Part shown: positions 228 through 17,058 of the stretch, piece by piece
How the letters are laid out: every line of letters begins with the position of its first letter
Numbering within the stretch: position 1 is the first letter of the stretch
Source: a virus
Strand: one strand, 5' to 3'
Length of the DNA: 24,244 bases
IMG/VR virus record: IMGVR_UViG_3300046000_006123
Coordinates: 1 to 24,244 of that record
Made by a program: the position numbers and the translations under genes
The notes under the pieces: model-generated
Database searches by the model: none
The model's input: the letters and a program-made list of their open reading frames with translations, nothing else
What the model was told of the DNA's origin: nothing

Positions 228-235
228 TACATTTG
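228..235 (+). promoter_or_regulatory. Candidate Bacteroidota -7 promoter box
   Basis: TACATTTG matches the TAnnTTTG -7 element of Bacteroidota housekeeping promoters exactly and is the same octamer found at 18453-18460. It lies directly behind the terminator and upstream of the gene at 379. No clear TTTG -33 element is present about 20 nt upstream, and the leader to 379 would be about 135 nt, so this is tentative. The rest of the 170-378 gap is very AT-rich, with only a 25-codon Cys-rich frame (233-310). Confidence 0.3.
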
Positions 236-378
236 TGGTATGAATGTGATAAAAATTGTGCGTGGTGTAAAGCTTATGATAATATGATTAAAATAAATGT
301 TATTAAATAAAAATTATTTTATAATATATTTTGATTTTTGATTAATTTTTATTATTATTATGAAAATATAATTAACTT

Positions 379-1599
379 ATGGGTAAAATTAATATACTAG
401 TACAACCAAATGACCGAGCTGGTTCAGGTAAATATAGATGTGTGGATCCACATGTAACCTTACAGAACAATAACCCTCAAGATTTTTTTGTTGAAATTAA
501 TGAAAATGTTAATTTTAATGATGATAATTATTTGAAAAAATTTGAGTTATTCTTTTTCCATAGAGCTCCAGGTGGTAATTATTTACAGGGTGTTGAAATT
601 ATTAAAAAAATTAAATCTTTTGGTGGTAAGGTTATCATCGATTTAGATGACCACTGGAATTTAGACCCATCACATGGTTTATATCAAACATCAAAAAAGA
701 ATGATATACCTCTTCATACTATTAATATCATAAAAGAAGCTGATCTGGTGACAGTATCAACACACTTCTTACAAAAAGAAGTTTTAAAACACAATAAAAA
801 ATGTGTTATTTTGGCTAACGCAATAAACCCAAATGAAACACAATTTAAACCAACACCTAGTGAGTCCGATAAGTTAAGATTCGGTTGGTTAGGTGGTTCC
901 TCACACGTTAAAGATATTGAATTATTAAAAAGCATACCTCAAAAATCAAATGGATGTGGTGATAAAATGCAAATTGTGTTATGTGGTTACGATACAAGAG
1001 GTGTTGTTAGGGCTTTAAATCCGCAAACAGGTGAAATGATGGAAAGAGATATGCAACCTGTTGAAACAACTTGGTTTATGTATGAAATATTCCTAACTGA
1101 CCATTTTAAAACAATTAAAGATCAGGAGTATGTTAAACATTTAATGAAATTCGATTCGACATTAAATTACGATGATAAAAATATGCCATATAAAAGAGTA
1201 TGGACCAAACCTATTGATACATATGCAAAAGGTTATAATGAGTTTGATGTTGCTTTAGCCCCATTAAATGATAGTTCTTTTAATAAATACAAATCTCAAT
1301 TAAAGGTAATTGAAGCTGGGTTCCATAAAAAAGCTATAATCGCTCAGAATTATGGACCGTACACCATTGATTTGGTTTCTGCAATTGAAAAGGGTGGTGG
1401 GTTTAACTCAAAAGGTAATTCTTTATTAGTAGATTCAAATAAGAACCACAAACAATGGGTTCAACATATCAAAAGATTAATTGATAACCCAAATCTTGTT
1501 AAAGATCTTGGAGAAAAATTATATGAGACTGTTAAAGACAAATATGATATAAATTACGTAACAAAATTAAGATCTGAAATATATAAAACATTAATATAA
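379..1599 (+). CDS. GT-B glycosyltransferase (GT4-like)
   Basis: This 406-residue protein looks like a two-Rossmann-domain (GT-B) glycosyltransferase that would move a sugar from an activated nucleotide donor. The N-terminal half has MGKINILVQPNDRAGSGKYR at the start, a strand-turn GGKVIIDLDDHW (residues 82-93) and ADLVTVST (121-128), typical of GT4-like acceptor domains. The C-terminal half starts around RFGWLGGSSHVKD (167-179) and carries FDVALAPLND (289-298) followed by KSQLKVIEAGFHKKAIIA (305-322), the donor-binding region with the usual Lys and Glu. The donor and acceptor cannot be read from the sequence. It opens a block of modification genes and the next gene starts 1 nt after its stop. 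The leader is A-rich without a Shine-Dalgarno sequence. I am confident in the fold but not in the substrate. Confidence 0.85.
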   Translation: MGKINILVQPNDRAGSGKYRCVDPHVTLQNNNPQDFFVEINENVNFNDDNYLKKFELFFFHRAPGGNYLQGVEIIKKIKSFGGKVIIDLDDHWNLDPSHGLYQTSKKNDIPLHTINIIKEADLVTVSTHFLQKEVLKHNKKCVILANAINPNETQFKPTPSESDKLRFGWLGGSSHVKDIELLKSIPQKSNGCGDKMQIVLCGYDTRGVVRALNPQTGEMMERDMQPVETTWFMYEIFLTDHFKTIKDQEYVKHLMKFDSTLNYDDKNMPYKRVWTKPIDTYAKGYNEFDVALAPLNDSSFNKYKSQLKVIEAGFHKKAIIAQNYGPYTIDLVSAIEKGGGFNSKGNSLLVDSNKNHKQWVQHIKRLIDNPNLVKDLGEKLYETVKDKYDINYVTKLRSEIYKTLI

Positions 1600-1600
1600 C

Positions 1601-2185
1601 ATGAACGACAAATTAGGAAATTTAGATATGGGTGAACTTTTTGATGATGAAATGAAAAGTGAATTGGATAGCATATTAAAACAAACTCAGAACATGATGG
1701 GTGATTGGGATTATGACCCAGCTTCAATGTCAATTAAGTTAAAAGTGTCTTTTATTAACAAATCAAATAACCCTGACCCAACCTATGAAAAGGAAGGCGA
1801 TAGTGGTTTTGATATTAGAGCTTTTATTGATGAACCAATTGAAATTGAACCAGGTTGTAGAACCTTAATAAAAACAGGTTTATATTTTGAAATACCTTAT
1901 GGTTATGAATTACAAGTTAGATCTAGAAGTGGTTTAGCTTTAAATAACGGTGTTGTTGTTTTAAATAGCCCTGGTACTGTTGATTCTGGATACAGAGGTG
2001 AGATTGGTGTTATTCTATACAATACAGATAAATTAAACCCTTTTTATGTAGATAATGGTGATAGAATTGCACAAGGTGTTATCGCTGCTGTACAAACAAT
2101 GGGTAAAACAAAATTTATAAAAACTGATACACTATCAAGTAGTGATAGAGGTTCTGGTGGTTTTGGTTCAACTGGTGTTAGTTAA
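1601..2185 (+). CDS. dut: dUTP diphosphatase (dUTPase) with N-terminal extension
   Basis: This trimeric-type dUTPase would hydrolyse dUTP to dUMP and pyrophosphate, keeping uracil out of phage DNA and supplying dUMP for dTMP synthesis. All five family motifs are visible in order: DSGFDIRA (67-74), RSRSGLALNNGV (107-118), GTVDSGYRGEI (125-135) with the catalytic-site Asp, GDRIAQGVI (153-161) and the C-terminal P-loop-like arm RGSGGFGSTG (183-192). At 194 residues it is longer than the usual 140-150. The extra part is an acidic N-terminal segment of about 45 residues (MNDKLGNLDMGELFDDEMKS onward) that is not part of the known fold. The next gene overlaps its stop by one base (TAATG). Confidence 0.95.
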   Translation: MNDKLGNLDMGELFDDEMKSELDSILKQTQNMMGDWDYDPASMSIKLKVSFINKSNNPDPTYEKEGDSGFDIRAFIDEPIEIEPGCRTLIKTGLYFEIPYGYELQVRSRSGLALNNGVVVLNSPGTVDSGYRGEIGVILYNTDKLNPFYVDNGDRIAQGVIAAVQTMGKTKFIKTDTLSSSDRGSGGFGSTGVS

Positions 2186-2490
2186 TGATAGTATTTAAAG
2201 ACCAAATAAGAGCTTATAAAGCGATCACACCTGATATTTTAAACCAAATAGAATATAAAACTGTTTGGTCTGGTAAAAGAATTGAGGTTGGTGATAAAGT
2301 TTTGTATGCGTTTGTGTACCCTTTAAATTCAGAGGATTATAAATTAGCTACATTTCTTGAGCGTGAACTTGATGAGGTTAATCAAATGTTTACGTTCATT
2401 CAAACAATAAAAGGTATTATACCAGTGTTAAAATATAAAAATGATAATCTTGTAAGAGATTTAATCATAGAAGAAGAGAATGAGTTATAA
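2185..2490 (+). CDS. Hypothetical protein, 101 residues
   Basis: I do not recognise this protein. It has 101 residues, no signal peptide or membrane segment, and a mix of short strands (KRIEVGDKVLYAFVYPL) and helices (DYKLATFLERELDEVNQMF) ending in an acidic tail EEENEL. Its ATG overlaps the dUTPase stop by one base and its own end overlaps the next glycosyltransferase by 11 nt, so it is translated as part of the same operon. The overlaps and normal base composition support a real gene. Confidence 0.75.
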   Translation: MIVFKDQIRAYKAITPDILNQIEYKTVWSGKRIEVGDKVLYAFVYPLNSEDYKLATFLERELDEVNQMFTFIQTIKGIIPVLKYKNDNLVRDLIIEEENEL

Positions 2491-3916
2491 AATTAGTGTT
2501 GTTTTCTCAACAAGAAAAATAGATGAAAATTTTATTGAGCATGTTAAGAAAACATGTATACATAAAGGTGTTGAGGTTTTGCCGTATGAAAATAACGGTG
2601 AGTATTCTTTAACAGAAATATATAATAAAGGTTTAAACGATGCGTCAAGTGACATAGTTGTTTTTTGTCACGATGACATATTATTTGAGACAAAAAATTG
2701 GGGTGAAAAAGTTTTAAAAGCTTTTGAAAAAAACCATGAATATGGTATCCTTGGTGTTGCTGGTACTGATCATATGATTAGTGGTAGGTGGTGGCAAATA
2801 CGTAATGCCATGTATGGTACTGTTAAACATACTGACGGTACTAATGTTTGGGTAAGTAAATATTCTCAAAACTATGGTAACGAGTTAAAAGAAATGGTTG
2901 TTATTGACGGTTTATTTATTGCTGTTAATAGAACTAGGATAAAAACTATTTTTGATGATCGATTTAAAGGTTTTCATTTTTATGATATATCATTTTGTTT
3001 ATCGAACCATGTTAACGGTATAAAAATAGGTTTAATCTCAAATATTTTAATATTACATAAATCCGTTGGTCAAGTTAATGAACAATGGGGTGAAAATAAA
3101 ACTTTATTTGAAGAAATATATGGTAATCAATTACCAATATGTTTGAATGATAAAACAAAACATATAATCTTTGATAAAGAATTACCAAAGATCGACATGC
3201 ATGTTCTTTGTTGGAATGAAGAAAAGATAATACCTTATTTTTTAAAACACTATGAGAATTTTGTTAGTAATATTTATGTTTATGACAATATATCAAATGA
3301 TAATAGTGTTAAATTATTAAAGTCACACCCAAAAGTTACGGTAATACCATATGATACTAATGGTGAAATTAGAGATGATATTTATTTACAAATAAAAAAT
3401 AACGCGTGGAAAAACTCAACGGATAAAGCTGATATCGTTATTGTGTGTGACATGGATGAATTTTTATATAGTAATGATTTAAAAAAATCAATCAATAAAT
3501 TTTATGAAAGTGATGCGACTGTTATTAAACCAACTGGTTATGATATGGTTGTAAACGATTTCCAATTTAATCATGGTGATAAATTAACTAATCTTGTTAA
3601 AACTGGGTATAAAAATAACCTTTTTGATAAATTAGTTATGTTTAAAACAAAAAATATAACGGAAATAAATTATAATGGTGGTTGCCATGTTGCAGCACCT
3701 AGGGGTGATAAAATTAAATTATTTGAAGGTGAATTTTTACTTTTACACTACAAAAGACTCGGTTTAAAATATTTTTTAAATAAAATGTCTGATTATAAAA
3801 AAAGGTTAAGTGAATTTAATAAAAAACATAAACTTGGTTATGAATATGAATTTAATAGTGATAAACACACCGAAGATTTTAATAAATCTTTAGGTAAAAT
3901 ATCTTATGTCATCTAA
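2480..3916 (+). CDS. Two-domain glycosyltransferase (two GT-A domains)
   Basis: This 478-residue protein looks like a fusion of two nucleotide-sugar-binding GT-A domains. The first (residues 1-220) starts KISVVFSTRKIDENF, has an SSDIVVFCHDDILFE segment (57-70) with the metal-binding acidic pair, and GVAGTDHMISGRWW (92-105). The second starts at IDMHVLCWNEEKIIPYFLKH (238-257), typical of GT2-like enzymes that begin with an xxNE step, and has KADIVIVCDMDEFL (316-329) containing the DxD motif. A HYKR segment (423-426) lies near the end. It probably transfers two sugars in sequence, or one domain recognises the acceptor. It overlaps the preceding gene by 11 nt. The donors are unknown. Confidence in glycosyltransferase activity is high; confidence in the two-domain reading is moderate. 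Confidence 0.8.
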   Translation: MSYKISVVFSTRKIDENFIEHVKKTCIHKGVEVLPYENNGEYSLTEIYNKGLNDASSDIVVFCHDDILFETKNWGEKVLKAFEKNHEYGILGVAGTDHMISGRWWQIRNAMYGTVKHTDGTNVWVSKYSQNYGNELKEMVVIDGLFIAVNRTRIKTIFDDRFKGFHFYDISFCLSNHVNGIKIGLISNILILHKSVGQVNEQWGENKTLFEEIYGNQLPICLNDKTKHIIFDKELPKIDMHVLCWNEEKIIPYFLKHYENFVSNIYVYDNISNDNSVKLLKSHPKVTVIPYDTNGEIRDDIYLQIKNNAWKNSTDKADIVIVCDMDEFLYSNDLKKSINKFYESDATVIKPTGYDMVVNDFQFNHGDKLTNLVKTGYKNNLFDKLVMFKTKNITEINYNGGCHVAAPRGDKIKLFEGEFLLLHYKRLGLKYFLNKMSDYKKRLSEFNKKHKLGYEYEFNSDKHTEDFNKSLGKISYVI

Positions 3917-3924
3917 TTCATAAC

Positions 3925-3940
3925 TATTTATATTAAATAA
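3925..3940 (+). promoter_or_regulatory. Candidate late promoter, copy 1
   Basis: TATTTATATTAAATAA lies in a 32-nt gap, with its TATTTATAT core ending 15 nt before the ATG at 3949. The identical 16-mer occurs at 11475-11490 in the same position relative to the next ATG, and a close variant at 19634. TATTTA and TAAATA form an inverted repeat around TAT. T4-type late promoters, read by gp55 family sigma factors, are similarly short AT-rich boxes (TATAAATA) just upstream of genes. Confidence 0.45.
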
Positions 3941-3948
3941 AATACTAT

Positions 3949-5106
3949 ATGGGATTTTTTAGGATTAAAAAAATAATAAAAGATAATGATAATAATCAGG
4001 TTGATTATAATATAACAAAAGGTTTTATAAAAGAGGAAAGGTTAGGATTACCTGAAACACCAAAAAAAACAACAATAAGAAAAAGTTATACAGCTGGAAA
4101 TAAAATTGAACCAAATACGGAAAAAATATCAGTGATAATTAAAAAAGGTAGTTATTCTGTTGACGTTAAAAAAATTTTTAAAGAAAAAGATATTTCTGTT
4201 GATACTGTTACTTCTGTTGATACTGTTACTTCTTTTGATACTGTTACTTCTTTTGATACTGTTACAGCTCTCGAACCTACAGAAGAAAAAATAAAAAAAA
4301 GAAAATACGGTATGAATGGTTGTGTTTTTTCAAAAACAATTGGATCCAACGGAAGATTAGGTAATCAATTATTTCAATTTGCTGCGATATATGGCTATGC
4401 CATGGATAATAATAAAAAATATTCGGTATCAAATTGGGTTTGCGCTCGCTCTGGTAAAGATTTTAAAAAATATTTTAACGGACCGCTTATATCAACACCT
4501 ATTAACGATGAAGCGGTGGAAATAAATTATATTGAAACAGATTTTGATTATAACGAAATACCGTATATTAAAGAAAATCTTAACATATGTGGATATTTCC
4601 AATCTGAATTATACTTTAAAAAATATACTGATGATGTAATTGATATATTACAACCATCTATTGATTTACATTTAGATTTAAGGATAAAATATTCAAACAT
4701 TAATTTTAAAAAAACAGCTTCATTACATGTTAGAAGAGGGGATTACCTATCTTTAGGTAGTTTTTATAATCAATTAACAATTGATAATTATTATACTAAA
4801 GCTATAGAAGAGTTAACAAAAAATGGGGTTGAGGATATATTAATATTCTCAGATGATATAAAATGGTGTAAAGAAAATTTTAAAGGTGATAACTTTTATT
4901 TTTCTGAAGGGAACTCAGAAATAGAAGATTTATTTTTAATGAGTTTTTGTTCACACAATATAATAGCGAACTCAAGTTTTTCGTGGTGGGGAGCTTTTTT
5001 AAATAAAAATAAGGATAAAATTGTTATAGCACCAAAAAAATGGTGGGGTGTTATTAATAATATGAATGAAAATACCATAATACCAGAAACATGGGTGAGA
5101 TTATAG
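3949..5106 (+). CDS. GT11-type fucosyltransferase with N-terminal repeat arm
   Basis: The C-terminal 265 residues look like a GT11 alpha-1,2-fucosyltransferase, which transfers fucose from GDP-fucose. Family motifs are clear: GRLGNQLFQFAAIYGYA (135-151), SLHVRRGDYLSLG (258-270, the GDP-fucose-binding HxRRGD), ILIFSDDIKWCKE (297-309) and NSSFSWWGAFLN (341-352). The first 120 residues are not part of the family. They are Lys-rich, low in complexity, and hold four copies of a hexapeptide S-V/F-D-T-V-T (83-106) encoded by 18-bp tandem repeats. This arm may tether the enzyme or act as a flexible spacer. The last 16 nt overlap the next gene. It is preceded by a candidate late promoter. Fold and donor class are confident; linkage and acceptor are inferred from the family only. 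Confidence 0.88.
   Translation: MGFFRIKKIIKDNDNNQVDYNITKGFIKEERLGLPETPKKTTIRKSYTAGNKIEPNTEKISVIIKKGSYSVDVKKIFKEKDISVDTVTSVDTVTSFDTVTSFDTVTALEPTEEKIKKRKYGMNGCVFSKTIGSNGRLGNQLFQFAAIYGYAMDNNKKYSVSNWVCARSGKDFKKYFNGPLISTPINDEAVEINYIETDFDYNEIPYIKENLNICGYFQSELYFKKYTDDVIDILQPSIDLHLDLRIKYSNINFKKTASLHVRRGDYLSLGSFYNQLTIDNYYTKAIEELTKNGVEDILIFSDDIKWCKENFKGDNFYFSEGNSEIEDLFLMSFCSHNIIANSSFSWWGAFLNKNKDKIVIAPKKWWGVINNMNENTIIPETWVRL
4195..4266 (+). repeat. 18-bp tandem repeat, four copies
   Basis: Four in-frame units run 4195-4212, 4213-4230, 4231-4248 and 4249-4266. The first two are identical (TCTGTTGATACTGTTACT). The third and fourth carry a G-to-T change (Val to Phe), and the fourth ends in A instead of T. 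They encode SVDTVT, SVDTVT, SFDTVT, SFDTVT in the arm of the fucosyltransferase. The high identity points to recent expansion by slippage or recombination. Confidence 0.95.
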
Positions 5107-5921
5107 ATTTAAAAGACACCACATTCATTATACCGATAATGATAGATAGTCAAGACAGGGTTGATAATTTAACTATTAACTTAAATTTCTTAGCTAAAAA
5201 TTTTAACACAAATGTTATTATTTTTGAATTAAAGAAACCAGGTTATAATGTTGTTGACAACATTATAAAAAAATTGGTAAAAAACAAATTAAAAATTACG
5301 TATCTTTATGAGGTGGTTGAATTAACAAATGAAAGACCAGAAATAATTTTTCATAGAACAAAATACCTTAATATGATGCTTAATATGGTTAAAACAGATT
5401 TTGTTGTTAACTATGATGTTGACGTTTTATTAAACCCATTAGATTATGTTTTATGTGTTAATAAGTTAAAAGATGATTGTGATGTGGTTTATCCGTATTT
5501 TTTTGGTTTATCACAAAGAGCTGTATTAAATAGTGGTAAGAATAAATTATTAGAATCCTTTGATCTTAATTTATTAACAGAAAATGATTACAAACTAAAC
5601 CAAAATCGTTTTGGTTTGGCCCAATTCTTTAAAACTAGTGTTTACATTGAAGGTGGTATGGAAAATGAACATTTTATATCATACGGACCAGAAGATTTTG
5701 AAAGAGCTCATAGGTTTAAAGTTTTAGATTATAATGTTGAGTGGGCTGATATTTATATATACCATATTGAACATAGTAGAGGTGATAATAGTAGTAATAA
5801 AAACCCATATTTTAGTAAAAATAATGAGTTATATAGTAGTCTTAATGGTTTAAATAAAAAAGAGCTAAAAATGTATTACGATACTATTGATTATAAGAAT
5901 TTATATAAAAAAAATGGGTGA
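5091..5921 (+). CDS. GT-A glycosyltransferase (GT2/galactosyltransferase-like)
   Basis: This 276-residue protein has the layout of a GT-A glycosyltransferase. TTFIIPIMIDSQDRVDNL (10-27) is the first Rossmann strand with the conserved R-x-x-L step. KTDFVVNYDVDVLLNP (101-116) carries the DxD metal and nucleotide-sugar motif. ISYGPEDFERAHRFKVLDY (196-214) resembles the G-x-E-D-x-(D/E)-x-x-R region near the end of galactosyltransferase-like and chondroitin-polymerase-like domains. A His at 225 (YIYHIEHSRG) may be the late metal ligand. It overlaps the fucosyltransferase by 16 nt and the next gene by 8 nt, so the three are probably translationally coupled. The sugar and acceptor are unknown. Confidence 0.75.
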   Translation: MGEIIDLKDTTFIIPIMIDSQDRVDNLTINLNFLAKNFNTNVIIFELKKPGYNVVDNIIKKLVKNKLKITYLYEVVELTNERPEIIFHRTKYLNMMLNMVKTDFVVNYDVDVLLNPLDYVLCVNKLKDDCDVVYPYFFGLSQRAVLNSGKNKLLESFDLNLLTENDYKLNQNRFGLAQFFKTSVYIEGGMENEHFISYGPEDFERAHRFKVLDYNVEWADIYIYHIEHSRGDNSSNKNPYFSKNNELYSSLNGLNKKELKMYYDTIDYKNLYKKNG

Positions 5922-6657
5922 TAAGATAAATTTTCAGAAGATTAATTTTAAATATATTAATCTAAAAAGTAGGGTGGATAGAAAAAATCGTGTTGACGCG
6001 TATTTAAAAAATAACGGTATTATTGCTGAAAGATTTGATGCGATAAAAGATTTTAGTAATTGTAATATTAATTTTGGTAAAAATTATAATGATGGAACTA
6101 AAGGTTGTTTTTTATCACATTATAATATCATAAAAGAATATGACAGTAATAAAGTATTGGGAATACTAGAGGATGATATTGTTTTATGTAGCGATTTCAC
6201 CGAAAGATTTAAATATATTGAGGATAATTTTAACCTTGATTGGGATATGTTTTTCTTATCATCATTTTATCATTTAAACGATGATAAAAATAGACACCAT
6301 GAAACTGGTGATTATGAATTTAGTGGGATTAAATATATCCATAGAACATACGGGTCATTTTGTACGCACTCATATTTAGTTAACCCAAAATCAAAAGAAA
6401 AAATATTAAGATTAATGGAAGAGAACGTTCATAAATCAAACGCTCTCGACCACCTGTATATACTAATACAACACCAATTAAATGTTTTTGCAATAACGCC
6501 TGGTATAACAACACAACTAGGTGATCATAGTGACATAACAAACAGTATGTTAGACCATACAGATTATTTCACAAAGGTACTTGGCCAACATTGTTATGTT
6601 GATAAATTGAGTGAATTTAATTACGATGAATACTTTAAATATAAAATAACAAAATAA
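5914..6657 (+). CDS. GT25-type glycosyltransferase
   Basis: This resembles GT25 (LPS-type) glycosyltransferases, which often add galactose or glucose to a surface glycan or protein. Counting from the ATG at 5914 it has 247 residues. FKYINLKSRVDRKNRV (12-27) matches the family NLxxRxDR start, RFDAIKD (40-46) the F-x-A segment, GTKGCFLSHYNI (61-72) the G-x-G-C-x-x-SH motif, and VLGILEDDIVL (81-91) the ILEDD metal-binding motif. The frame is open further upstream to a TTG at 5887, but that would add nine residues and a 35-nt overlap. ATG 5914, after an A-rich run, fits the family start better. It overlaps the preceding gene by 8 nt. The product of the reaction is not known. Confidence 0.85.
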   Translation: MGDKINFQKINFKYINLKSRVDRKNRVDAYLKNNGIIAERFDAIKDFSNCNINFGKNYNDGTKGCFLSHYNIIKEYDSNKVLGILEDDIVLCSDFTERFKYIEDNFNLDWDMFFLSSFYHLNDDKNRHHETGDYEFSGIKYIHRTYGSFCTHSYLVNPKSKEKILRLMEENVHKSNALDHLYILIQHQLNVFAITPGITTQLGDHSDITNSMLDHTDYFTKVLGQHCYVDKLSEFNYDEYFKYKITK

Positions 6658-6661
6658 AATT

Positions 6662-7411
6662 ATGAAAGATATAGCTAAAAACATAAAAAAATACTATTTT
6701 AATAACGATGGCTTAAAATATGTGATAAATAATTTTGATTACTTAACAACCGAATACCATATTTCAAGTGATGAATATATAGACGCTTCTGGTGTCTACG
6801 TTTTAATGAAAAGGGTTATTGATCTTATGGATAAAGATAAGGTTGTTATTGACATAGGTGGTAATTGCGGTTTAACATCAATCCCATTTTGTTTAAATGG
6901 TTATGAGGTTTATACATTTGAACCGATTAAAATGAATGTCGATTTAATAGAGATGAATAAAATCGAAAATAAATGTGATAACTTAAATATAGTACCATAC
7001 GCTCTAAGTGATAAAACAAAAGAGGAGATAATATATATACCGTATTGTTCTGATAACACATCTTTTAACAAAGACGTAGCTGTTAGTAATATGAATGATA
7101 AGAGTATATGTGTTGAAGAAACCGTTAATTGTATAACATTTGATGAATGGTTAGAAAATAACGGGCAAATAAATATCGGGTTTATAAAAATAGATGTGCA
7201 AGGTCACGAAAAGAATGTTCTAGAAGGTATGGTTAATTTTCTATCAAATTGTAATGACGTTTATCTTTTTATTGAATGGGATGGAAACCACACAATGATG
7301 TCTGGTAATACACTAGAAGAAATGGAATCGCTATTAAATCGTACTGGGTTTAATGAAAAAAACCTATTCAATAGGGATCTATATGATGATAAAATTTTTT
7401 ATAAAAAATAA
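6662..7411 (+). CDS. FkbM-family SAM-dependent methyltransferase
   Basis: This 249-residue protein looks like an FkbM-type methyltransferase, a family that often O-methylates sugars. VVIDIGGNCGLTSIPFCLNG (61-80) is the SAM-binding glycine-rich loop. YEVYTFEPIKMN (81-92) supplies the acidic residue that binds the SAM ribose. NIVPYALSD (109-117) and the later FIKIDVQGHEKNVLEGM (174-190) are the family's most typical signature. It sits 4 nt after the GT25 gene, so it probably methylates a sugar added by the neighbouring transferases. The family assignment is strong; the substrate is inferred from context. Confidence 0.88.
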   Translation: MKDIAKNIKKYYFNNDGLKYVINNFDYLTTEYHISSDEYIDASGVYVLMKRVIDLMDKDKVVIDIGGNCGLTSIPFCLNGYEVYTFEPIKMNVDLIEMNKIENKCDNLNIVPYALSDKTKEEIIYIPYCSDNTSFNKDVAVSNMNDKSICVEETVNCITFDEWLENNGQINIGFIKIDVQGHEKNVLEGMVNFLSNCNDVYLFIEWDGNHTMMSGNTLEEMESLLNRTGFNEKNLFNRDLYDDKIFYKK

Positions 7412-7424
7412 AACATAAAAAAAT

Positions 7425-8189
7425 ATGAGTACAAGACAAACAAAACCAACAACAAAAAAAACAAGAAAAAAATTAACATCTGAAGAAGAGTTTGAAGCTC
7501 TTGAAGATATGAACCGTGCACATGCTGGTAATGTATTAGATAAAATGAAGGTTGATATTAAGTGTAAAACCCAAAATCAAAAGAAACTCATTACTGAGAT
7601 AAAAGATAAAGAGATTGTTATTTGTTCGGGACTCCCAGGTACAGGGAAAACTTTTTTATCTTGTGCTGTAGCTTTAGAACTTCTTAAAAGTGATCCTAGA
7701 TACCGAAAAATTGTCATTGTTAAATCAGTAACAACTTTAAAAGATGAGGAAATTGGGTTTTTAAAAGGTACCATGAAAGAAAAGATGGAACCGTTTATGT
7801 ACTCTTTTATGCATAATTTTGAAAAAGTAATTGGTAAACATAGTGTTGAGCTTTTAAGAGCCAATAACATGATTGAAGAAATGCCAATTGCGTATATGAG
7901 GGGTATTAATATTGATAACTCAATCACAATTATCGATGAGGCTCAAAACATATCTATTGATAATATTAGAACTATCATGACCAGACTTGGTGAGAATTCT
8001 AAAATGATATTTTTAGGGGATGAAAATCAGATTGATATGAAAAAGAAGGGTGAAAGCTCTTTGAATTTCATCATCCAAAAATTTAGTAATTTTGATGAGG
8101 TTGGTACAGTAACATTAGGTGAAGATGATGTCGTTAGAAACCCATTGATCAAAAAAATAGAAAAAATATTTAACGAAAGTAAAATGTAG
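7425..8189 (+). CDS. phoH: PhoH-like P-loop ATPase
   Basis: This 254-residue protein belongs to the PhoH-like ATPases, which share the ATPase core of superfamily 1 helicases and are common in large phages, where the role is not settled (RNA metabolism is the usual proposal). KTQNQKKLITEI (48-59) gives the Q-motif-like entry, CSGLPGTGKTFLS (67-79) is Walker A, ITIIDEAQN (167-175) is Walker B, and KMIFLGDENQID (193-204) is the following sensor motif with GD-x-x-Q. EEIGFLKGTMKEKMEPF (108-124) is the conserved insert between them. The first 45 residues are basic and probably disordered. The leader is an A-rich run without a Shine-Dalgarno sequence. Confidence 0.93.
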   Translation: MSTRQTKPTTKKTRKKLTSEEEFEALEDMNRAHAGNVLDKMKVDIKCKTQNQKKLITEIKDKEIVICSGLPGTGKTFLSCAVALELLKSDPRYRKIVIVKSVTTLKDEEIGFLKGTMKEKMEPFMYSFMHNFEKVIGKHSVELLRANNMIEEMPIAYMRGINIDNSITIIDEAQNISIDNIRTIMTRLGENSKMIFLGDENQIDMKKKGESSLNFIIQKFSNFDEVGTVTLGEDDVVRNPLIKKIEKIFNESKM

Positions 8190-8239
8190 ACTTTATTTTA
8201 AACCAAAATTGTGTTATTTTTATATAAAAAAATGATAAC

Positions 8240-8875
8240 ATGGTAATAGGTATTACAATAAATAACATTTTAAGGGAACACATTAGTAAACTAAAGGATT
8301 TATATGAATTTGAGTTTGAAAAAGAACCCATTTTACCTATAAATCCTTTTGATTTATCTAAATCATTCCCAGATATTGAAGGTGAGATTGTCGACACTAA
8401 TTTTGAGGTTGGTAAAGAATTAGAGTTATCTGAAAATAAAAAAGATAATTCATTTAACCTGAGTAAATTCATGTATGAAGATGCGTGTTTTGAGGTATTT
8501 GGTCGAGTTGAGGAAAGTCAACCTGGTATCATTAAACAAGTATGTGATTTCTCTAACAAAAATAAAATCAAAATCGTATTATTAAATAATGAAAGCCAAA
8601 GATCTAAATCAGCTACATTATTCTTCCTAAGTAAAAACTATTATAATTTAGAACAGATAATCTTTCCAAGCAAATGGAAAGATTTTTGGTCGTATTGTGA
8701 TATCTTGGTTACCGATAACCCTAAGTTATTAAAAAACAAACCAAAAGATAAAATATCTATAAAACATAAAAACGATTTTAATGTTGATATTAAATCGGAT
8801 TATACTATAATTAACATTGAAGAATTATTTAAAATTTTAAAAAAATTAAAGAAAGAACAAAATGGAAAAAACTAA
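8240..8875 (+). CDS. HAD-like 5'-nucleotidase fold protein, probable pseudoenzyme
   Basis: The 211-residue sequence follows the plan of small phage HAD-fold 5'(3')-nucleotidases. MVIGITINNILREHISKLKD is the motif I strand and following helix, the region around PFDLSKSFPD (36-45) is the cap, KIKIVLLNNESQRSKSATL (109-127) is the motif II strand, and FWSYCDILVTDNPKLL (149-164) is motif IV, followed by KISIKHKNDFN. The two catalytic aspartates of motif I (D-x-D) appear as Thr6 and Asn8 (IGITINN), so phosphatase activity is unlikely. It may keep a binding or structural role. The match to the family is by pattern only. It overlaps the next gene by 14 nt. The 50-nt gap before it holds TTATTTTTATATAAA, a weak relative of the late-promoter motif. 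Confidence 0.55.
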   Translation: MVIGITINNILREHISKLKDLYEFEFEKEPILPINPFDLSKSFPDIEGEIVDTNFEVGKELELSENKKDNSFNLSKFMYEDACFEVFGRVEESQPGIIKQVCDFSNKNKIKIVLLNNESQRSKSATLFFLSKNYYNLEQIIFPSKWKDFWSYCDILVTDNPKLLKNKPKDKISIKHKNDFNVDIKSDYTIINIEELFKILKKLKKEQNGKN

Positions 8876-9944
8876 CGAAATAGTTAAAAACATTGAGTCG
8901 GCTATAAGCAAGATTCAAAACAAAGAACAAAAAATTGTTTTTTTGGTGCCAGACACCAAAGGTAACGCTAAATCAAGCGTTATCCACCTCTATAAACAAG
9001 CGTTAACACTTAAAAATTTAGGTTATAGTGTTAGTATGTTACATGAGAAAAATGACTACATTAAAGTTGGTTCATGGTTGACACCAGAATGCGATGAATT
9101 AGAACATTTATCAATTGAAGATAACAATCTTGTTGTTGGGGCTTCTGATTTTATCATAGTACCAGAAGTGTATGGTAACGTATTTGAACAAATTAATAAA
9201 ATGCCTTTAGAAAAGGTTATTTACATACAATCATTTGATTATATGCTTGAAGCTTTCGCACCTGGTAAATCTTGGGTTGATTTAGGTGCTGAAGAATGTA
9301 TAACAACGTCAAACTCACTTAAAACATTGATTGAGGATACGGTTCCAGTTGTAGATGTTCAATTTATCGAACCATCGATTTCAGATAAAACGTTTACTTT
9401 AAACGATAAACCACAAAAACCTATTATTGCTATCTATTGTCGTGAGGCTAGAAAAGCGGCAAAAATTATCAAATCATTCTATTTGAAATACCCTATTTAT
9501 AGATTTGTTTCATTTAAAGATATGCATACAATGCCACAAGATACTTTTGCTAATAACTTAAAAGAATGTTGTGTTTCTATATGGATTGATGATGATTCGT
9601 CATTCGGTAGATACCCAGTTGAATCTATTAAGTGTAATGTACCTGTTATTGGTAAAGTACCTAATATTATCCCAGAATGGATGACAGATGAAAATGGTGT
9701 TTGGGTTTATGATGAAAATCAAATACCCGAAATTTTATCTAGTTACATTAAAAATTGGTTAGAAGATACTTTACCAGAGAATTTATTAAATGTCGCAAAA
9801 ACAGTTGAAAATAAATACACTGAAGAAGTTTTTGAAAAGAATACTAAAGAGGTTTATGAATACCTTTTCAATAAAAAAATCTCGAAATTAGAAACAATAA
9901 AAGAAAATTTTAAAAAAGAAGTAGAACAAAATGAGCAAAACTAA
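8862..9944 (+). CDS. GT-B glycosyltransferase
   Basis: This 360-residue protein has a GT-B layout. A short helical N-terminus (1-22) precedes KIVFLVPDTKGNAKSSVIHL (24-43), the first strand and acceptor-side loop. Later come DFIIVPEVYGNVFEQI (96-111), VIYIQSFDYMLEAF (119-132) and TTSNSLKTLI (148-157), usual for the N-terminal Rossmann domain. The donor domain opens with KPIIAIYCREARKAAKII (186-203) and contains WIDDDSSFGRYPVESIKCNV (241-260), the acidic donor-sugar binding region, then PVIGKVPNIIPEWM (261-274). It overlaps the genes on both sides by 14 nt, so it is part of one translationally coupled group that ends in the sigma factor. The substrate is unknown. Confidence 0.75.
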   Translation: MEKTNEIVKNIESAISKIQNKEQKIVFLVPDTKGNAKSSVIHLYKQALTLKNLGYSVSMLHEKNDYIKVGSWLTPECDELEHLSIEDNNLVVGASDFIIVPEVYGNVFEQINKMPLEKVIYIQSFDYMLEAFAPGKSWVDLGAEECITTSNSLKTLIEDTVPVVDVQFIEPSISDKTFTLNDKPQKPIIAIYCREARKAAKIIKSFYLKYPIYRFVSFKDMHTMPQDTFANNLKECCVSIWIDDDSSFGRYPVESIKCNVPVIGKVPNIIPEWMTDENGVWVYDENQIPEILSSYIKNWLEDTLPENLLNVAKTVENKYTEEVFEKNTKEVYEYLFNKKISKLETIKENFKKEVEQNEQN

Positions 9945-10761
9945 TTTAACAGTTATAATCCCAGTACACTCAGTTGCTGATATTGGGAAACAAAAATTTG
10001 ATGATTTATTCGATATCGCATTATCGTCTATTAGTAGAAATGAGGTTAAACCAGAAAAGGTTTTAATTGTAAGATGCAATTGTATTGAAGTTGACGCTAA
10101 ATTAGAGTCAATTGATTTAACAAAATATGATTTAAATATTGAAATCATAACAAATGATGGTGATACTGATTACCAGAGCCAAATAAATTACGCGGCTAAG
10201 CATGTTAACACCGAATACATGTCAATTTTGGAGTTTGATGATGAGGTATCAAAAACATGGTACAGTAATGTTAAAACACATGTTGCGGCCTACCCAGAAG
10301 TTGATATGTTTTTACCTATTGTTAATGATGTTTCTGAGGACAACAACTTTATAGGTTTATCAAATGAAGCTATTTGGGCTTATAATTTTAGTGAATCACT
10401 TGGTAATGTTGATTTAGAGTGTTTATTAGAATACCCGAATATCAACCCTTGTGGTATGGTTATTAAAACAGCTATTTTTAACGAGATTAATGGGTTTAAA
10501 CAAATCAAATTAACATTCAACTATGAGTTTTTACTACGTTTTCATAAAAACGGTTACAAGTCAATGGTTATCCCGAAAATCGGTTACAAACACGTTAATA
10601 TGAGGGAAGAATCGTTGTTCTGGTTATATAAAAACAGTGAAGCTGTAGAATACAAAATGGACCCTAAACAAGCATTATTTTGGATGGAAACAGCTAAAAA
10701 AGAATATTTATTTAACGATGATAGACATATAATATATGAGGAAAATGAGGTTATTGAGTAA
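9931..10761 (+). CDS. GT2-family glycosyltransferase
   Basis: This 276-residue protein is a GT-A enzyme of the GT2 type. LTVIIPVHSVADIG (6-19) is the typical first strand. KVLIVRCN (43-50) and the following acidic stretch bind the nucleotide. DYQSQINYAAKHVNTEYMSI (80-99) is the helix before the metal site LEFDDEVS (100-107). NPCGMVIKTAIFNEINGFK (172-190) and YEFLLRFHKNGYK (198-210) match the usual C-terminal motif, where new-acceptor binding and the catalytic acid lie. The Asp/Glu-rich late segment and a 1-nt overlap with the sigma factor gene place it last in the coupled run 8240-10761. The sugar is not known. Confidence 0.82.
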   Translation: MSKTNLTVIIPVHSVADIGKQKFDDLFDIALSSISRNEVKPEKVLIVRCNCIEVDAKLESIDLTKYDLNIEIITNDGDTDYQSQINYAAKHVNTEYMSILEFDDEVSKTWYSNVKTHVAAYPEVDMFLPIVNDVSEDNNFIGLSNEAIWAYNFSESLGNVDLECLLEYPNINPCGMVIKTAIFNEINGFKQIKLTFNYEFLLRFHKNGYKSMVIPKIGYKHVNMREESLFWLYKNSEAVEYKMDPKQALFWMETAKKEYLFNDDRHIIYEENEVIE

Positions 10762-11474
10762 TGGCAAAACAGAAAAAAGATCGCAACTACTATGGTGTAG
10801 ACCAAGAAAAAGCGGTGGTTATGTTTCTGGAATCCGAAACAGTTGCTGAACGAGAAAAAATTTATAGAGAGTTTTTACAAGAACCTATCAACACAATGAT
10901 AGAAAGTATTATCAGAACTTATAAATTATACAGACAATCATACGAATTCCACGATTTACACGCTGACACGCTATCATTCTTGATGACAAAATTTGATAAA
11001 TTTAAACCTGAAAAGGGTAAAAGATCATTTTCGTACTTTGGTACAATATGTAAAAATTATCTTTTCGGTGAGATGGTCAAAGAATATAAGAAAAAAACAA
11101 CTGTTGTTGATATCGATGAATCAGAAAATGATTTACAAAAAAGAGATGATTTAATATATCGTATTGATAATGAAGATCTTGATCTAACTTTTTTTATTGA
11201 AACTTTAACCGCGAATATAAAGGACGAATTAAAATCAGATGATTTAAATGACAACGAATTTAAAGTTGGACATTCGTTAGTAAAGATACTTGAAGAGTGG
11301 CGTGAATTATTTTCACAAGTTAATGAGGGTAAAAACTCACCAAAATTCAACAAAAACCTAATATTACTATATATCCGTAATATGACTGGCCTAAATACAA
11401 AGGAAATTAGGAATAGTATGAAAAGATTTAAGTCATTATATCGTATTTTTAAAGATAATTATTTAGATACTTGA
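10761..11474 (+). CDS. Late-transcription sigma factor, T4 gp55-like
   Basis: This 237-residue protein resembles the phage sigma factor that directs host RNA polymerase to late promoters (T4 gp55 family). EPINTMIESIIRTYKLYRQS (41-60) followed by FHDLHADTLSFLMTKFDKFK (63-82) and GKRSFSYFGTICKNYLFGEM (86-105) fits sigma region 2, where the core-binding and -10-melting helices lie. It is longer than gp55 (about 185 residues). The extra C-terminal part includes LLYIRNMTGLNTKEIRNSMK (202-221), which looks like a helix-turn-helix and may contact DNA as region 4 does in other sigma factors. A candidate late promoter overlaps its stop codon region, so it may lie just upstream of its own target. Assignment is by motif pattern. 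Confidence 0.75.
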   Translation: MAKQKKDRNYYGVDQEKAVVMFLESETVAEREKIYREFLQEPINTMIESIIRTYKLYRQSYEFHDLHADTLSFLMTKFDKFKPEKGKRSFSYFGTICKNYLFGEMVKEYKKKTTVVDIDESENDLQKRDDLIYRIDNEDLDLTFFIETLTANIKDELKSDDLNDNEFKVGHSLVKILEEWRELFSQVNEGKNSPKFNKNLILLYIRNMTGLNTKEIRNSMKRFKSLYRIFKDNYLDT

Positions 11475-11490
11475 TATTTATATTAAATAA
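11475..11490 (+). promoter_or_regulatory. Candidate late promoter, copy 2
   Basis: The 16-mer TATTTATATTAAATAA, identical to that at 3925-3940, starts immediately after the sigma factor stop codon, with its TATTTATAT core ending 15 nt before the ATG at 11499. It stands at the start of the structural gene run, where a late promoter would be expected. A second AT-rich stretch, TATTTATT, lies at 11491-11498 right before the ATG, and a similar TATTTATTACT precedes the ATG at 15682. Confidence 0.5.
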
Positions 11491-11498
11491 TATTTATT

Positions 11499-11885
11499 AT
11501 GGTACCAAAAAAGAAAAAAGTTGACGTTTCGGAAGATAGCATGAAAGAGCTTATGCAAGAAACTTATAATGAAATTGTTGATGAAAGAAATAGGGCTTTA
11601 AGCGCTTATAAAAAATTTACAAAAGATATTAACGAAAATTCTGATATTGCTTTAGTTGGTAAGATTACAAATGATTTATTGAAAATAATCGATTCATCTA
11701 TTGAAAAAAAACTAAGGTTAATTAAAATCCAAGGTGATATTCTATATAAATCTGGTAAGTCATCCGATGCATCTAGCGCTGGTAATATGACGATTACTGA
11801 TGAGGATAGAAAATGGGCTGAAGATTTTATTAAAAAACAAGCAACTACAAGCGGATCGGATACAAACGAAAAAGAATATGAATAA
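11499..11885 (+). CDS. Small coiled-coil protein, possible small terminase
   Basis: The 128-residue protein starts with a basic MVPKKKKVDV, then has a long helical, coiled-coil-like centre (SMKELMQETYNEIVDERNRA through IEKKLRLIKIQGDILYK), a flexible Ser/Gly-rich part, and an acidic tail. T4-type small terminase subunits (gp16) also have a central coiled coil between flexible ends, and the large terminase is in the same block, but there is no diagnostic motif and it lies about 8 kb from the large subunit. A baseplate or assembly chaperone role is equally possible. It is the first gene behind the candidate late promoter. Confidence 0.6.
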   Translation: MVPKKKKVDVSEDSMKELMQETYNEIVDERNRALSAYKKFTKDINENSDIALVGKITNDLLKIIDSSIEKKLRLIKIQGDILYKSGKSSDASSAGNMTITDEDRKWAEDFIKKQATTSGSDTNEKEYE

Positions 11886-11887
11886 TA

Positions 11888-13786
11888 ATGAGTTCACAAA
11901 GCGAAATATTTTCAAGATATAGGTCACTGGTGGTTTCTAATAAACAGAAACCATATGCTACCGATGCACAAAAAAAATTAGATAAATTAGAATTTGTCGA
12001 CTTTTTAGTTGAGTTGGTTAAATCAACCAGAGGTCAAAAAGAGTTTAAAAGTTTAATATTAAAAGGTAGTCTATCCCAATTAAAAAAATTTGATGAAATC
12101 AACAAAGTTATTGTTGATAATTTTATCGCTTTATTTGGTTGTGATAGTAATTTATTTATACCTCAAAAATATACAACATTAGCGGTTGGTGGTGTAGAAA
12201 TGACCAAACAAGAGATTGATTCTTTTGGGTTATTAAATATTGACCCTGATAGTAAGTCGGGTAAGTTAATGTATGAGGGTAATGATATTACCAAACATGT
12301 AAATTATTTTTTTAGTAAATCACAAAACGCGACAATTGACTCGCCATTAGAATTAAAAAAAGATAATAGAGTATTATTTACTTTACACGCAAAAGACCCG
12401 TCAACATTTGTATTTAAATTCGGTGAATTTTATTCAAAAAAACAATTTTCAATCTTTTTAAATGACTATTTAGCTGTTGTAACACCAGTGTTTAATTTCC
12501 CTAATTTTATGTCCATATTAATGGATATATTGACAGGATCAGTTTCAACTAAAGCAAAACTAAACAAAAAAATCATAGTTAAACAAAGTGCTTTAATTAA
12601 AGGGTTAAAAAAAATGTTTGGGTTTTGTAATGAGGATGATAATGGAATGCCAGATGCGTCAAATAAAAGTTTTTTAGATAAAGAATTTAAACCATCAGAT
12701 GCGCAAAAAAATGGTGATGGTATTTTAAACTCTGACGCTGATTTTGATAATGTTTTTAATTTTAATAATAAAGAGTTAGATGATATTGAAAACACTGGTA
12801 ATCTTAGGGCAAACAACTTTTTAAGATTTTCTTCATGTGGTAATCTGGATGTTGGTATAAACCCAGATGATATCATAAATTCTTTAGAAGAATTATTTAA
12901 TAATAGTCAGGGTGATAGATTAATTTTCCCTAATGAAAACCCACAAAATGTTGTACCGCAAGAAAATGCTAGTACAATAGATAATTCTAAAAAAATACCA
13001 AATTTAGACCAAGCGTCTGATATATTAGATAAAGCTTTAAAAAACGGTATTAACGATGTTGTTAATTCAGGTGAAATAGACGCAGCAATTAATTTACCTA
13101 ATATAAATGCTGAGATTCAATTAAATATTTTAAAGGCTATACCATATGCTATTATGCAAATGATTATAACACCTAAATTATTGGTGGTACCTAAATTATA
13201 TTTAGTTTTAAAAGATGATAACACAAAAAAATCACCAGAAGAGATGATATCTTTTATGAAACCTTTAATTAAAAAAATAGGTAGTTTTATCACGGATTTA
13301 TTAATTAAAAATATTTTTAATCTAGTAAAAAAAGATTTACTTAATTTAGCAAAAAAGATTAGTGCTGATTTCTTAAAACAAAGAGGACTTGATTACATCT
13401 CATCATTAAAAAGTCTATTATCACTTTTAAGTGCTTTAAAAGGTTTTAAAGTTGGTGGATGTCAATCAATAATTGAACAAATATTACGCTTATTAAAACT
13501 ATTAAACGTAGCACCGATGCCACCTATGCCACCACCATTAGTTTTATTGGGTGGTGCATTAAAACCAGGTTTAAATCAAATCGCTATGGTTAATGATTTA
13601 AAATCAAGCTTAAGCGATAAAGGTATTGAGACGGCTGCAACGTTTCCAGATGGAACACCAAATCATCTTATGATTGCTTTGGAAGAAAGTATGAAAACTA
13701 TGGTTAGCCATATAAAAACAAATTCAAAAATTGAAGTAACCACTGTTGGTGTTGGTTTTACAACAGGCTTCGGACAAATGCAATAA
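11888..13786 (+). CDS. Large probable virion structural protein, 632 residues
   Basis: I do not recognise a family. The protein has 632 residues. The first 230 are mixed alpha/beta with KQEIDSFGLLNIDPDSKSGK and FTLHAKDPSTFVFKF segments. An Asn/Asp-rich linker follows (about 250-370). The second half is helical, with a hydrophobic stretch ILKAIPYAIMQMIITPKLLV (residues about 413-432) and SLKSLLSLLSALKGFKVGG. Near the end is a proline run MPPMPPPLVLLGG (about 547-559) and a Gly/Thr-rich tail. Its place, three genes upstream of other virion genes and behind a candidate late promoter, suggests a baseplate or tail component. The hydrophobic parts do not look like true membrane helices because they are interrupted by Pro and Lys. 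Confidence 0.6.
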   Translation: MSSQSEIFSRYRSLVVSNKQKPYATDAQKKLDKLEFVDFLVELVKSTRGQKEFKSLILKGSLSQLKKFDEINKVIVDNFIALFGCDSNLFIPQKYTTLAVGGVEMTKQEIDSFGLLNIDPDSKSGKLMYEGNDITKHVNYFFSKSQNATIDSPLELKKDNRVLFTLHAKDPSTFVFKFGEFYSKKQFSIFLNDYLAVVTPVFNFPNFMSILMDILTGSVSTKAKLNKKIIVKQSALIKGLKKMFGFCNEDDNGMPDASNKSFLDKEFKPSDAQKNGDGILNSDADFDNVFNFNNKELDDIENTGNLRANNFLRFSSCGNLDVGINPDDIINSLEELFNNSQGDRLIFPNENPQNVVPQENASTIDNSKKIPNLDQASDILDKALKNGINDVVNSGEIDAAINLPNINAEIQLNILKAIPYAIMQMIITPKLLVVPKLYLVLKDDNTKKSPEEMISFMKPLIKKIGSFITDLLIKNIFNLVKKDLLNLAKKISADFLKQRGLDYISSLKSLLSLLSALKGFKVGGCQSIIEQILRLLKLLNVAPMPPMPPPLVLLGGALKPGLNQIAMVNDLKSSLSDKGIETAATFPDGTPNHLMIALEESMKTMVSHIKTNSKIEVTTVGVGFTTGFGQMQ

Positions 13787-13789
13787 AAT

Positions 13790-14008
13790 ATGAATAATCC
13801 AAAACTAAAAGAAATTTTTGAAAACGTTGATAAAAAATCAAATAAAGATTTGGCAACGCTATTACACGCTTTAAAAAATGATTTTGAAGGTGTTAAAGAA
13901 ACTGTTTTAAGATTAACAACGACCATGGAAGAGGTTGAAGTTACATATGAAAAAGTCTATAATGAATTAAAACAAAGACTAAAATTCGAAGATAAAGATG
14001 AAAGCTGA
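13790..14008 (+). CDS. Small coiled-coil protein, 72 residues
   Basis: The 72-residue product is highly helical and charged: MNNPKLKEIFENVDKKSNKD, LATLLHALKNDFEGVKETVL, then EEVEVTYEKVYNELKQRLKF with heptad-like spacing of hydrophobics. It has no recognised family. It begins 3 nt after the 632-residue gene, after an A-rich leader, and its end overlaps the gp5-like gene by 11 nt. Placed between virion genes, it may be an assembly chaperone or a small baseplate part. Confidence 0.75.
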   Translation: MNNPKLKEIFENVDKKSNKDLATLLHALKNDFEGVKETVLRLTTTMEEVEVTYEKVYNELKQRLKFEDKDES

Positions 14009-15668: not shown

Positions 15669-15681
15669 AATATTTATTACT

Positions 15682-17058
15682 ATGGGTATATACAGAACAT
15701 ATTTTGATAAAAACAACACTATTGTTAAAGATAGTAACGTTAATACTGGCAGAAACCAAGTGTCAGAGCTATATTTTGGTGATCTCATCAGTAGGTTTTT
15801 GTTTTATTGCTCATTTGATGAGGTTATAAATCTTGTAAACTCTGGTGTTATAAATCCAAACGGTAACGTGAAACATATTTTAACAATCAAAAATACAAGT
15901 AATTTTGATATTAAAGATATATTGAGTATCGACAATAATTTAATGTTCGGTAGTTATTTTAGACCAACCTCATTTGATCTTGAATTACATGATGTTAACG
16001 AACTATGGGATGAGGGTAATGGTTATGATTTTGTTACTGGAATTCAATCATTCCCACAAAACATTGAATATATTTTAGGACCATCAAATTGGATAAACGC
16101 TACAAACGTAACAAATTTCAATACACCTGGTGTTATAAGTGGGGGAACCAACCCAATTGCTGTACAACATTTAGGTTTTGGTAATGAGGATATTAAAATG
16201 GATGTTACTAATTTCGTAAATTCAATTATAAGTGGTGCAACTAGTGGTACAACATACAATGGTTTCTGTTTAAAATACTCAGATGCTATTGAAGCTTTGA
16301 CGTTCCCAGATAATAGAGTTTGTGCTCTTGGTTTATTCACAAGACATACACAGACATTTTTTGAACCATATATTGAAACAATATATGATGATCATATTGA
16401 TGATGAAAGAATAAGTTTTTATTTGGGTAAAGAAAATAAATTATTCTTTTATTCGGTTATTAACGGTAAACTAGAAAATTTAGACCAGGTACCAACCTGT
16501 ACCATTAACGGTACGGGATATACTGTTAACCAAAAAACAAAAGGTGTTTATTATGTAACAGTTGGTGGTGATGAATCAAATTTTGTTAGTTACACAGAGT
16601 ATAACGATATTTGGAGCGGGATTGTTTATAATGGGAATGCTAGACCTAATGTTAAATTAAGATTCGTCCCAATTGACGCTGATAGGTATTACAACTTTAA
16701 TATGGATGCTTTGGATGACACCAGATATGGTTTATCTTTGAGCGGTATAAAGGTTGGTGAAAGTTTACAGCAAGGTGAACAGAGAAAGGTTAACATCCTT
16801 TTAAGAAAACCATATACTGTTTCTGAATACTATGTAAGTAATAGTGTTTATTATAAATTATACGTTAAACAAGGGCCAGCTATTATTGATATTTTTGATT
16901 GGCAGCTAGCGAATAAAGCGTTAAATAATAACTATTTTACGATTGACACGACTTGGTTGGTACCACAAAGGTATTTTGTTGATATCAAAATAGAAACGAA
17001 CGGTGAAACAACATTACATGGTAATGAATTACATTTTGATGTTGTAAATAAAGCGTAA
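15682..17058 (+). CDS. Virion protein with DNRLRE-like domain
   Basis: The 458-residue protein appears to begin with a DNRLRE-type beta domain, a fold known from secreted adhesins and surface proteins. YFDKNNTIVKDSNVNTGRNQ (7-26) is the D-x-x-I ... N-x-G start. LELHDVNELWDEGNGYDF (100-117) matches its W-x-E-G-x-G segment. SNWINATNVTNFNTPG (135-150) is the W ... TPG part. IKMDVTNFVNSIISG (171-185) and YNGFCLKYSD (192-201) are the DVT ... N-G-F-x-L end. The remaining 250 residues are beta-rich, with a FTRHTQTFFEPYIETIYD segment and Ig-like strands at the end. The position between the baseplate-like gene and other late genes suggests a tail or baseplate decoration. The match is by eye; I do not claim a tail-fibre role. 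Confidence 0.6.
   Translation: MGIYRTYFDKNNTIVKDSNVNTGRNQVSELYFGDLISRFLFYCSFDEVINLVNSGVINPNGNVKHILTIKNTSNFDIKDILSIDNNLMFGSYFRPTSFDLELHDVNELWDEGNGYDFVTGIQSFPQNIEYILGPSNWINATNVTNFNTPGVISGGTNPIAVQHLGFGNEDIKMDVTNFVNSIISGATSGTTYNGFCLKYSDAIEALTFPDNRVCALGLFTRHTQTFFEPYIETIYDDHIDDERISFYLGKENKLFFYSVINGKLENLDQVPTCTINGTGYTVNQKTKGVYYVTVGGDESNFVSYTEYNDIWSGIVYNGNARPNVKLRFVPIDADRYYNFNMDALDDTRYGLSLSGIKVGESLQQGEQRKVNILLRKPYTVSEYYVSNSVYYKLYVKQGPAIIDIFDWQLANKALNNNYFTIDTTWLVPQRYFVDIKIETNGETTLHGNELHFDVVNKA

Follow-up and report, generated by a model that had tools for sequence, protein, structure and literature searches.

A predicted glycan locus in a T4-like phage lineage combines fixed glycosyltransferase genes with an exchangeable cassette

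Introduction

Variable islands rich in glycosyltransferase (GT) genes are known in T4-like aquatic phages, both pelagimyophages (PMC7029224) and cyanophages (PMC3037559). In pelagimyophages, such an island is the host recognition cluster (HRC; PMC7029224), and in cyanophages it is the gp17-gp18 hypervariable region (PMC3037559, citing Millard 2009). Both lie in the structural part of the genome and contain several GTs and sugar genes; they average 44.6 and 34.2 kb, respectively, include tail fibres, and show divergence that is described as gradual. Here we describe a GT island in a virus record of 24,244 nucleotides (IMG/VR record IMGVR_UViG_3300046000_006123, positions 1 to 24,244; hereafter the window), which is probably a genome fragment. 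The island shares with the HRC and the gp17-gp18 region a T4-like aquatic carrier, a variable position among structural genes and the combination of several GTs with sugar genes, and we report that within it, fixed GT genes surround a small slot in which a cassette of glycan genes is exchanged.

Results

We compared the island across 19 non-redundant related contigs, the window counted, and all relatives are uncultured contigs. Genes are named by their first position in the window, and the features of the island are on the plus strand. The order GT2480, slot, PhoH, gene 8240, GT8862, GT9931 and sigma-factor-like gene is conserved in the 19 contigs, and GT379 (379-1599) and a dUTPase gene (1601-2185) precede GT2480 in most contigs long enough to include this region. 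GT2480 (2480-3916), which has two GT-A domains (PF13712, 6e-26; PF13704, 5e-15) and is kept in 19/19 contigs, forms the left border of the slot, and the fixed PhoH gene (7425-8189; PF02562, 4e-57) forms its right border. The content between them, which in the window comprises genes 3949-7411 encoding a GT11, a GT-A, a GT25 and an FkbM methyltransferase, differs among relatives, and the slot measures 3.5 kb in the window and about 3-10 kb in relatives.

The replacement is most evident among close relatives. In L070, L071, L073, L075 and L077, the concatenated PhoH-to-sigma genes are 91-95% identical to those of the window, and none of the catalytic genes of the window's cassette is present. With blastn, the left-side alignment to these contigs ends at 3898-4203 and resumes on the right at 7401-7406 in 5/5, which places the exchange slot, for which close relatives have no matching DNA, at 3899-7401 (left border between 3898 and 4203, right border 7402-7406). 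The left border falls either at the 3' end of GT2480 or within the N-terminal leader of a cassette gene, and the right one lies immediately ahead of PhoH. A tree of the fixed genes shows close relatives bearing three cassette types on short branches, and the window's cassette is not common to any examined relative of the lineage. Several cassettes occur in identical form in more than one record (L071=L072=L098; L075=L076; L073=L096; L080=L081=L082), which argues against chimeric assembly. The fixed GTs are found in every relative that bears the sigma-like gene, and GT379 is kept in most relatives whose contigs reach it. Taken together, the comparison shows two tiers, in which fixed GTs (2480, 8862 and 9931, with 379 in most contigs) flank a slot whose predicted glycan cassette is replaced wholesale.

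These results refine an initial annotation of the window, which had described a dense glycan cluster of seven GT genes and an FkbM methyltransferase gene. All of these are real open reading frames (ORFs) in their places, with two GT domains in gene 2480, and they are interleaved with the dUTPase gene, PhoH and gene 8240, which is conserved and uncharacterised. That the phage encodes a glycan pathway is well supported. The proposal that the genes suffice for one branched, methylated, fucose-containing glycan holds for only part of the set: the comparison with the clusters of related phages, which the annotation had also suggested, found GT2480, GT8862 and GT9931 to be fixed and the GT11, 5091, GT25 and methyl steps to lie in the exchangeable middle. 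The fucose and methyl parts of the predicted glycan are thus strain-specific.

The first gene of the cassette (3949-5106) encodes an N-terminal leader followed by a GT11 domain of the fucosyltransferase family (PF01531, 6e-30; phrog_2644, 4e-52). The domain scores 105 bits against a cut-off of 23.9 and contains the HVRRGDY motif, which suggests a putative fucosyltransferase, for which the family points to GDP-fucose as donor; a comparison with PDB sequences gave nothing useful. The second gene (5091-5921) has no Pfam match and matches phrog_15655 (4e-67). Its DxD and GMENEHFI..ED motifs are invariant, and its AlphaFold2 model (pTM 0.84) has as best PDB match the GT-A chondroitin polymerase K4CP (E 5e-10), which suggests a K4CP-like GT-A fold. 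The GT11 and the 5091-type GT are fused into one ORF in L145 and L147, and homologues of both (34% and 42%, respectively) are adjacent in cyanophage P-TIM68, which suggests that the two enzymes probably act jointly. The cassette is completed by a GT25 gene (5914-6657; PF01755, 2e-13) and an FkbM methyltransferase gene (6662-7411; PF05050, 9e-18; TIGR01444, 6e-24), the latter above both cut-offs (65.5 versus 22.7 and 85.2 versus 37.7). Throughout, donor and acceptor sugars are assigned from families.

We also found that part of one cassette protein outlasts exchange. One cassette gene per contig opens with a charged, low-complexity leader of ~100 residues that starts with MGxF or a close variant. 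In the window, this leader spans residues 1 to ~128 of the GT11 protein (MGFFRIKK...; 3949-4333) and has homologues at the start of the RgpF-type proteins of L075, L073 and L071 (BLASTP E 9e-22 to 5e-14), whereas the GT11 and RgpF-type catalytic parts are unrelated (hhalign probability 0.1%). An independent second family comprises GT8-type and GT29-type proteins, which have a common leader (97.7%, E 2e-12) and catalytic parts with a weak, partial match (23%). In searches with hidden Markov models, each leader occurs in the slot gene only. The end of the window's leader holds an 18-bp tandem repeat in four copies (SVDTVT; 4194-4265), and the homology to L075 stops within this repeat, at 4203. 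These comparisons indicate that, in each of two independent families, exchange replaces the catalytic domain and spares the leader. We do not claim a common origin of the two leader families, which share just the MGxFxxK start (hhalign E about 0.001-0.03).

A Pfam scan of representatives of the slot protein clusters revealed what other cassettes carry. Some cassettes of more distant relatives contain NeuB (PF03102, 1e-59), a CMP-sugar cytidylyltransferase (CTP_transf_3, 4e-6) and a GT29-like sialyltransferase domain (8e-9), a set that stays under NCBIfam equivalog cut-offs. NeuB is nearer to N-acetylneuraminate synthase than to pseudaminate synthase and falls under both cut-offs; it occurs in single copy in 5/12 records searched and sits in the slot of every contig of the NeuB-cassette type. 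By these family matches, such cassettes are of a broadly sialic type and may serve a sialic or other nonulosonic acid pathway. Other slot families are GT8, FkbM and other methyltransferases, RgpF, WbsX (8e-92), a KdsC-type phosphatase, a pyruvyltransferase, a DegT aminotransferase, a PglD-type acetyltransferase, a carbamoyltransferase and a UDP-GlcNAc 2-epimerase. Among the annotated slot proteins no tail fibre was recognised, the scan covering part of the 38 slot protein clusters. Across the 12 records, PF00535-type GT matches are almost all in this island.

The fixed genes are less readily assigned. GT379 is of GT-B type (phrog_7162 glycosyltransferase, 1e-41) and gave nothing useful against PDB sequences, and its neighbour, the fixed dUTPase (PF00692, 3e-22), is not a glycan gene. 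GT8862 (8862-9944) is below the Pfam threshold; its profile matches the GT-B enzyme AmGGT (8xsg; 1.4e-10), which is also the best match to its predicted fold (pTM 0.83; E 1.4e-13, TM 0.71) and is a retaining UDP-glucosyltransferase (PMC12159676). GT9931 (9931-10761), a GT-A type enzyme with a PF00535 match just under the cut-off (1.4e-4), resembles the N-terminal part of TagF by profile (4e-6). No relatives of GT8862 or GT9931 were found in isolated phages, and a search of 84,980 species genomes that relied on short exact patterns found none of GT8862. The gene that follows (10761-11474) is weakly supported as a sigma factor, possibly a late sigma of gp55 type (phrog_234, 0.036; TIGR02937, 4e-4).

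A terminator-like hairpin (197-221) precedes a Bacteroidota-type -7 box, TACATTTG (228-235), and the island's transcription is predicted to start here; the distance of the box is not conserved in relatives (4/15). A single transcription unit from ~228 to 18281 is predicted, with no other plus-strand terminator-like stem of at least 9 pairs. Just 5' of gene 379, positions 237-316 form a second small variable spot, with several hundred extra bases in some relatives (e.g., L070).

The surrounding genes identify the phage. The recognisable virion and packaging genes inside the window are a T4-type TerL gene (19657; phrog_2, 1.5e-46) and a gp20-type portal gene (21726; phrog_213, 3.5e-54). Thus, the initial statement that virion genes directly follow the cluster was loose, because the sigma-like gene comes next and TerL only at 19657. 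One end of the window matches contig G007 (52.6 kb) and the other contig G006 (56 kb), each at 100% identity, and G007 encodes a tail sheath, a tail tube and a baseplate hub ~14-19 kb upstream, including a contractile tail (phrog_23 sheath, 3e-56; phrog_4542 tube, 1e-28). The island is therefore a non-syntenic GT island between structural modules, with tail genes upstream and TerL and portal downstream. Related contigs reach 321 kb, and the phage is a large T4-like freshwater myophage. By TerL, the closest isolate is Flavobacterium phage immuto (~30% amino-acid identity), in which the 41 kb surrounding TerL and PhoH contain no annotated GT.

A missing Shine-Dalgarno sequence and a TAnnTTTG -7 box are traits of Bacteroidota. 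A Shine-Dalgarno-like 4-mer is missing from 23/24 window genes, and a TAnnTTTG box lies 5' of the homologues of gene 18492, mostly at 37-40 bases, in 24/25 distinct sequences against ~6% background (80-nt). The scarcity of Shine-Dalgarno 4-mers and the position of the box point to Bacteroidota as the likely host. An enrichment of TAnnTTTG across the whole window was considered and rejected (43 found versus 46 expected). At 18453-18491 in the window, the box is followed directly by a hairpin and a T-run extending to the start codon of gene 18492, an arrangement kept in nearly all relatives while the stem varies on both arms (GCCTTGTT/AACAAGGC, GTCTTATT/AATAAGAC and GCCCTATA/TATAGGGC). This element may be either a terminator within the promoter region or a structured 5' leader.

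Several other features of these phages were observed. The portal gene of the window holds an in-frame intein with HNH endonuclease signals (21987-23147), exactly where the alignment to the uninterrupted portal gene of G001 breaks, and L104 encodes a PhoH of 1011 aa (7379-10414) that appears to be interrupted by two intein-like insertions, of which one is at the Walker A motif. Gene 13998-15668, for which no family was recognised, diverges far more quickly than the genes beside it (30-50% identity in distant relatives versus 47-80%); genes 11888, 13998 and 10761 had no match in PDB. In G006 (C1:44667-56227; L124), at least five different proteins have similar short N-terminal segments, for example LNEQIxRMRxMMGLNE, reminiscent of a sorting or prohead-targeting sequence shared by otherwise different phage proteins. 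The same contig carries another GT2-type gene (C1:49079-49783; PF00535, 2.5e-23), which lies well downstream of the island of this phage.

Discussion

Our preferred reading, to which we assign about an even chance, is that the phage encodes a glycan pathway of two tiers, organised around the cassette-exchange slot and acting on virion proteins. The fixed enzymes would make a common core glycan, and the cassette would add strain-specific outer sugars and caps, which would be a fucose-type sugar and a methyl group in the window and, among relatives, a sialic-type acid or something else. Since the window's cassette comes without a sugar-nucleotide synthesis gene, the pathway would draw on nucleotide sugars of the host, for example GDP-fucose. 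Recombination in the common flanks would move cassettes. Least certain are the last steps: the enzymes would modify virion proteins in the cytoplasm during late infection, and exchanging the cassette would thereby alter the virion surface. A more tentative extension, which we think somewhat less probable than not, is a serotype-like virion system with a fixed core glycan and an exchangeable cap, in which the leader would direct every incoming catalytic domain to one common assembly site and one recombination would yield a new coat (fucose/methyl, sialic or other).

The target is where the evidence divides, and we favour virion proteins, at about even odds, over the host surface. We count for virion proteins the predicted single transcription unit, the structural genes of the same phage on both sides of the island, the presence of the fixed GTs wherever the sigma-like gene occurs, and the lack of membrane or export parts. 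In a hydropathy threshold scan, as opposed to a dedicated predictor, the glycan proteins of the window had no clear membrane segment and none above KD19 1.6, and only 4/166 slot proteins exceeded the threshold, which suggests that flippase- or Gtr-like export parts are absent; the scan likewise revealed no Gtr-type set (GtrA flippase, membrane-anchored GtrB, multi-pass GtrC-type GT). This absence of membrane-bound Gtr-like, flippase or polymerase genes also counts against the competing explanation, which we consider possible but less probable, that the cassette alters a host surface glycan (lipopolysaccharide (LPS) O-chain or capsule) during infection, as in serotype conversion, and blocks competing phages or the re-adsorption of progeny. 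The late-gene location in a lytic-looking phage speaks in the same direction, since a late surface change would act briefly. Yet several points weigh against a virion target. The PhoH and dUTPase genes within the array show that neighbourhood need not equal shared function. The families GT11, GT25, NeuB, RgpF and WbsX belong to the usual repertoire of bacterial O-antigen and capsule loci, which favours the host surface, and soluble GTs also make lipid-linked glycans that host machinery exports. In addition, relatives of GT11 and gene 5091 sit in cyanophage sugar clusters together with UDP-glucose dehydrogenase and epimerase, and similar phage islands have been interpreted as host-surface modifiers, the pelagimyophage authors proposing this for the GTs of the HRC (PMC7029224).

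The initial annotation had also named modified DNA bases as a target, as GTs of T4-like phages glycosylate DNA bases and a dUTPase gene lies within the cluster. We regard this explanation as very improbable, and T4-type DNA glucosylation in particular as unlikely, because the thymidylate-synthase-family enzymes of relatives G001 and G002 are of thymidylate synthase type and keep the Asn of that enzyme (LGLPFNIAS). Furthermore, no dCMP-hydroxymethylase-like copy was found in G001 or G002, whose genomes are incomplete, in a search that did not extend to other hypermodification genes, and FkbM, GT25, GT11 and NeuB are not known as DNA-modifying families. The cassettes could instead lack a steady function and be transient cargo, or filler of the genome, that comes and goes by chance at a spot tolerant of recombination; Sullivan et al. 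raised 'stuffer DNA' for cyanophage LPS clusters (PMC3037559). This we consider improbable: identical cassettes recur in separate records, the leader architecture is kept, and the cassette ORFs are intact, on the same strand, tightly packed and nearly always glycan-related in content.

If the glycan is on the virion, the slot would be a phage counterpart of capsule switching, and natural sets of close relatives that differ in their sugar cassette would make the purpose of phage glycosylation testable. If the host surface is the target, the slot would let a lytic-type phage lineage change surface conversion by exchange at one precise locus. The combination of NeuB, a CMP-sugar cytidylyltransferase and a GT29-like sialyltransferase in one phage slot also widens the known coding range of phages. 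Within the open-licence literature we found no relevant paper on a phage fucosyltransferase with FkbM, nor on phage nonulosonic synthesis with capsid.

Among described systems, the LPS cluster of cyanophage P-SSM2 (PMC3037559) lies close to phoH, as here, and the sugar cluster of P-TIM68 shares the adjacent GT11 and 5091 homologues; unlike here, their hosts are cyanobacteria, and the dehydrogenase and epimerase of P-TIM68 are both absent from our cassette. Escherichia phage phi92 and its relatives encode a GT379-type GT (26% identity) in a run of four GT genes, in a gene order that is not T4-like. The hypervariable region of Ostreococcus viruses (PMC12906663) is tied to host interaction, with GTs that differ among virus types; as these are eukaryotic algal viruses, this is an analogy only. 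In mycobacteriophages (mentioned in PMC11256854), phage GTs have been proposed to decorate structural proteins, a likeness by description, given other phages and hosts and few GTs. In contrast to the HRC and gp17-gp18 islands, the slot here is small, has fixed GTs on both sides and sharp borders, is replaced wholesale and contains no recognised tail fibre. As far as the open-licence literature shows, and earlier reports may exist, a small slot bordered by fixed GTs, its wholesale replacement at sharp borders and the exchange of domains behind a leader are new, as are sialic-type cassettes in a T4-like lineage of probable Bacteroidota hosts. Bacterial capsule and O-antigen loci likewise combine fixed flanks with a swappable central sugar cassette; unlike them, the island has no polymerase, flippase or initiating membrane transferase, and its carrier is a lytic-type phage. 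By this analogy, these phages seem to switch the sugars that they display in the manner of bacterial capsule switching.

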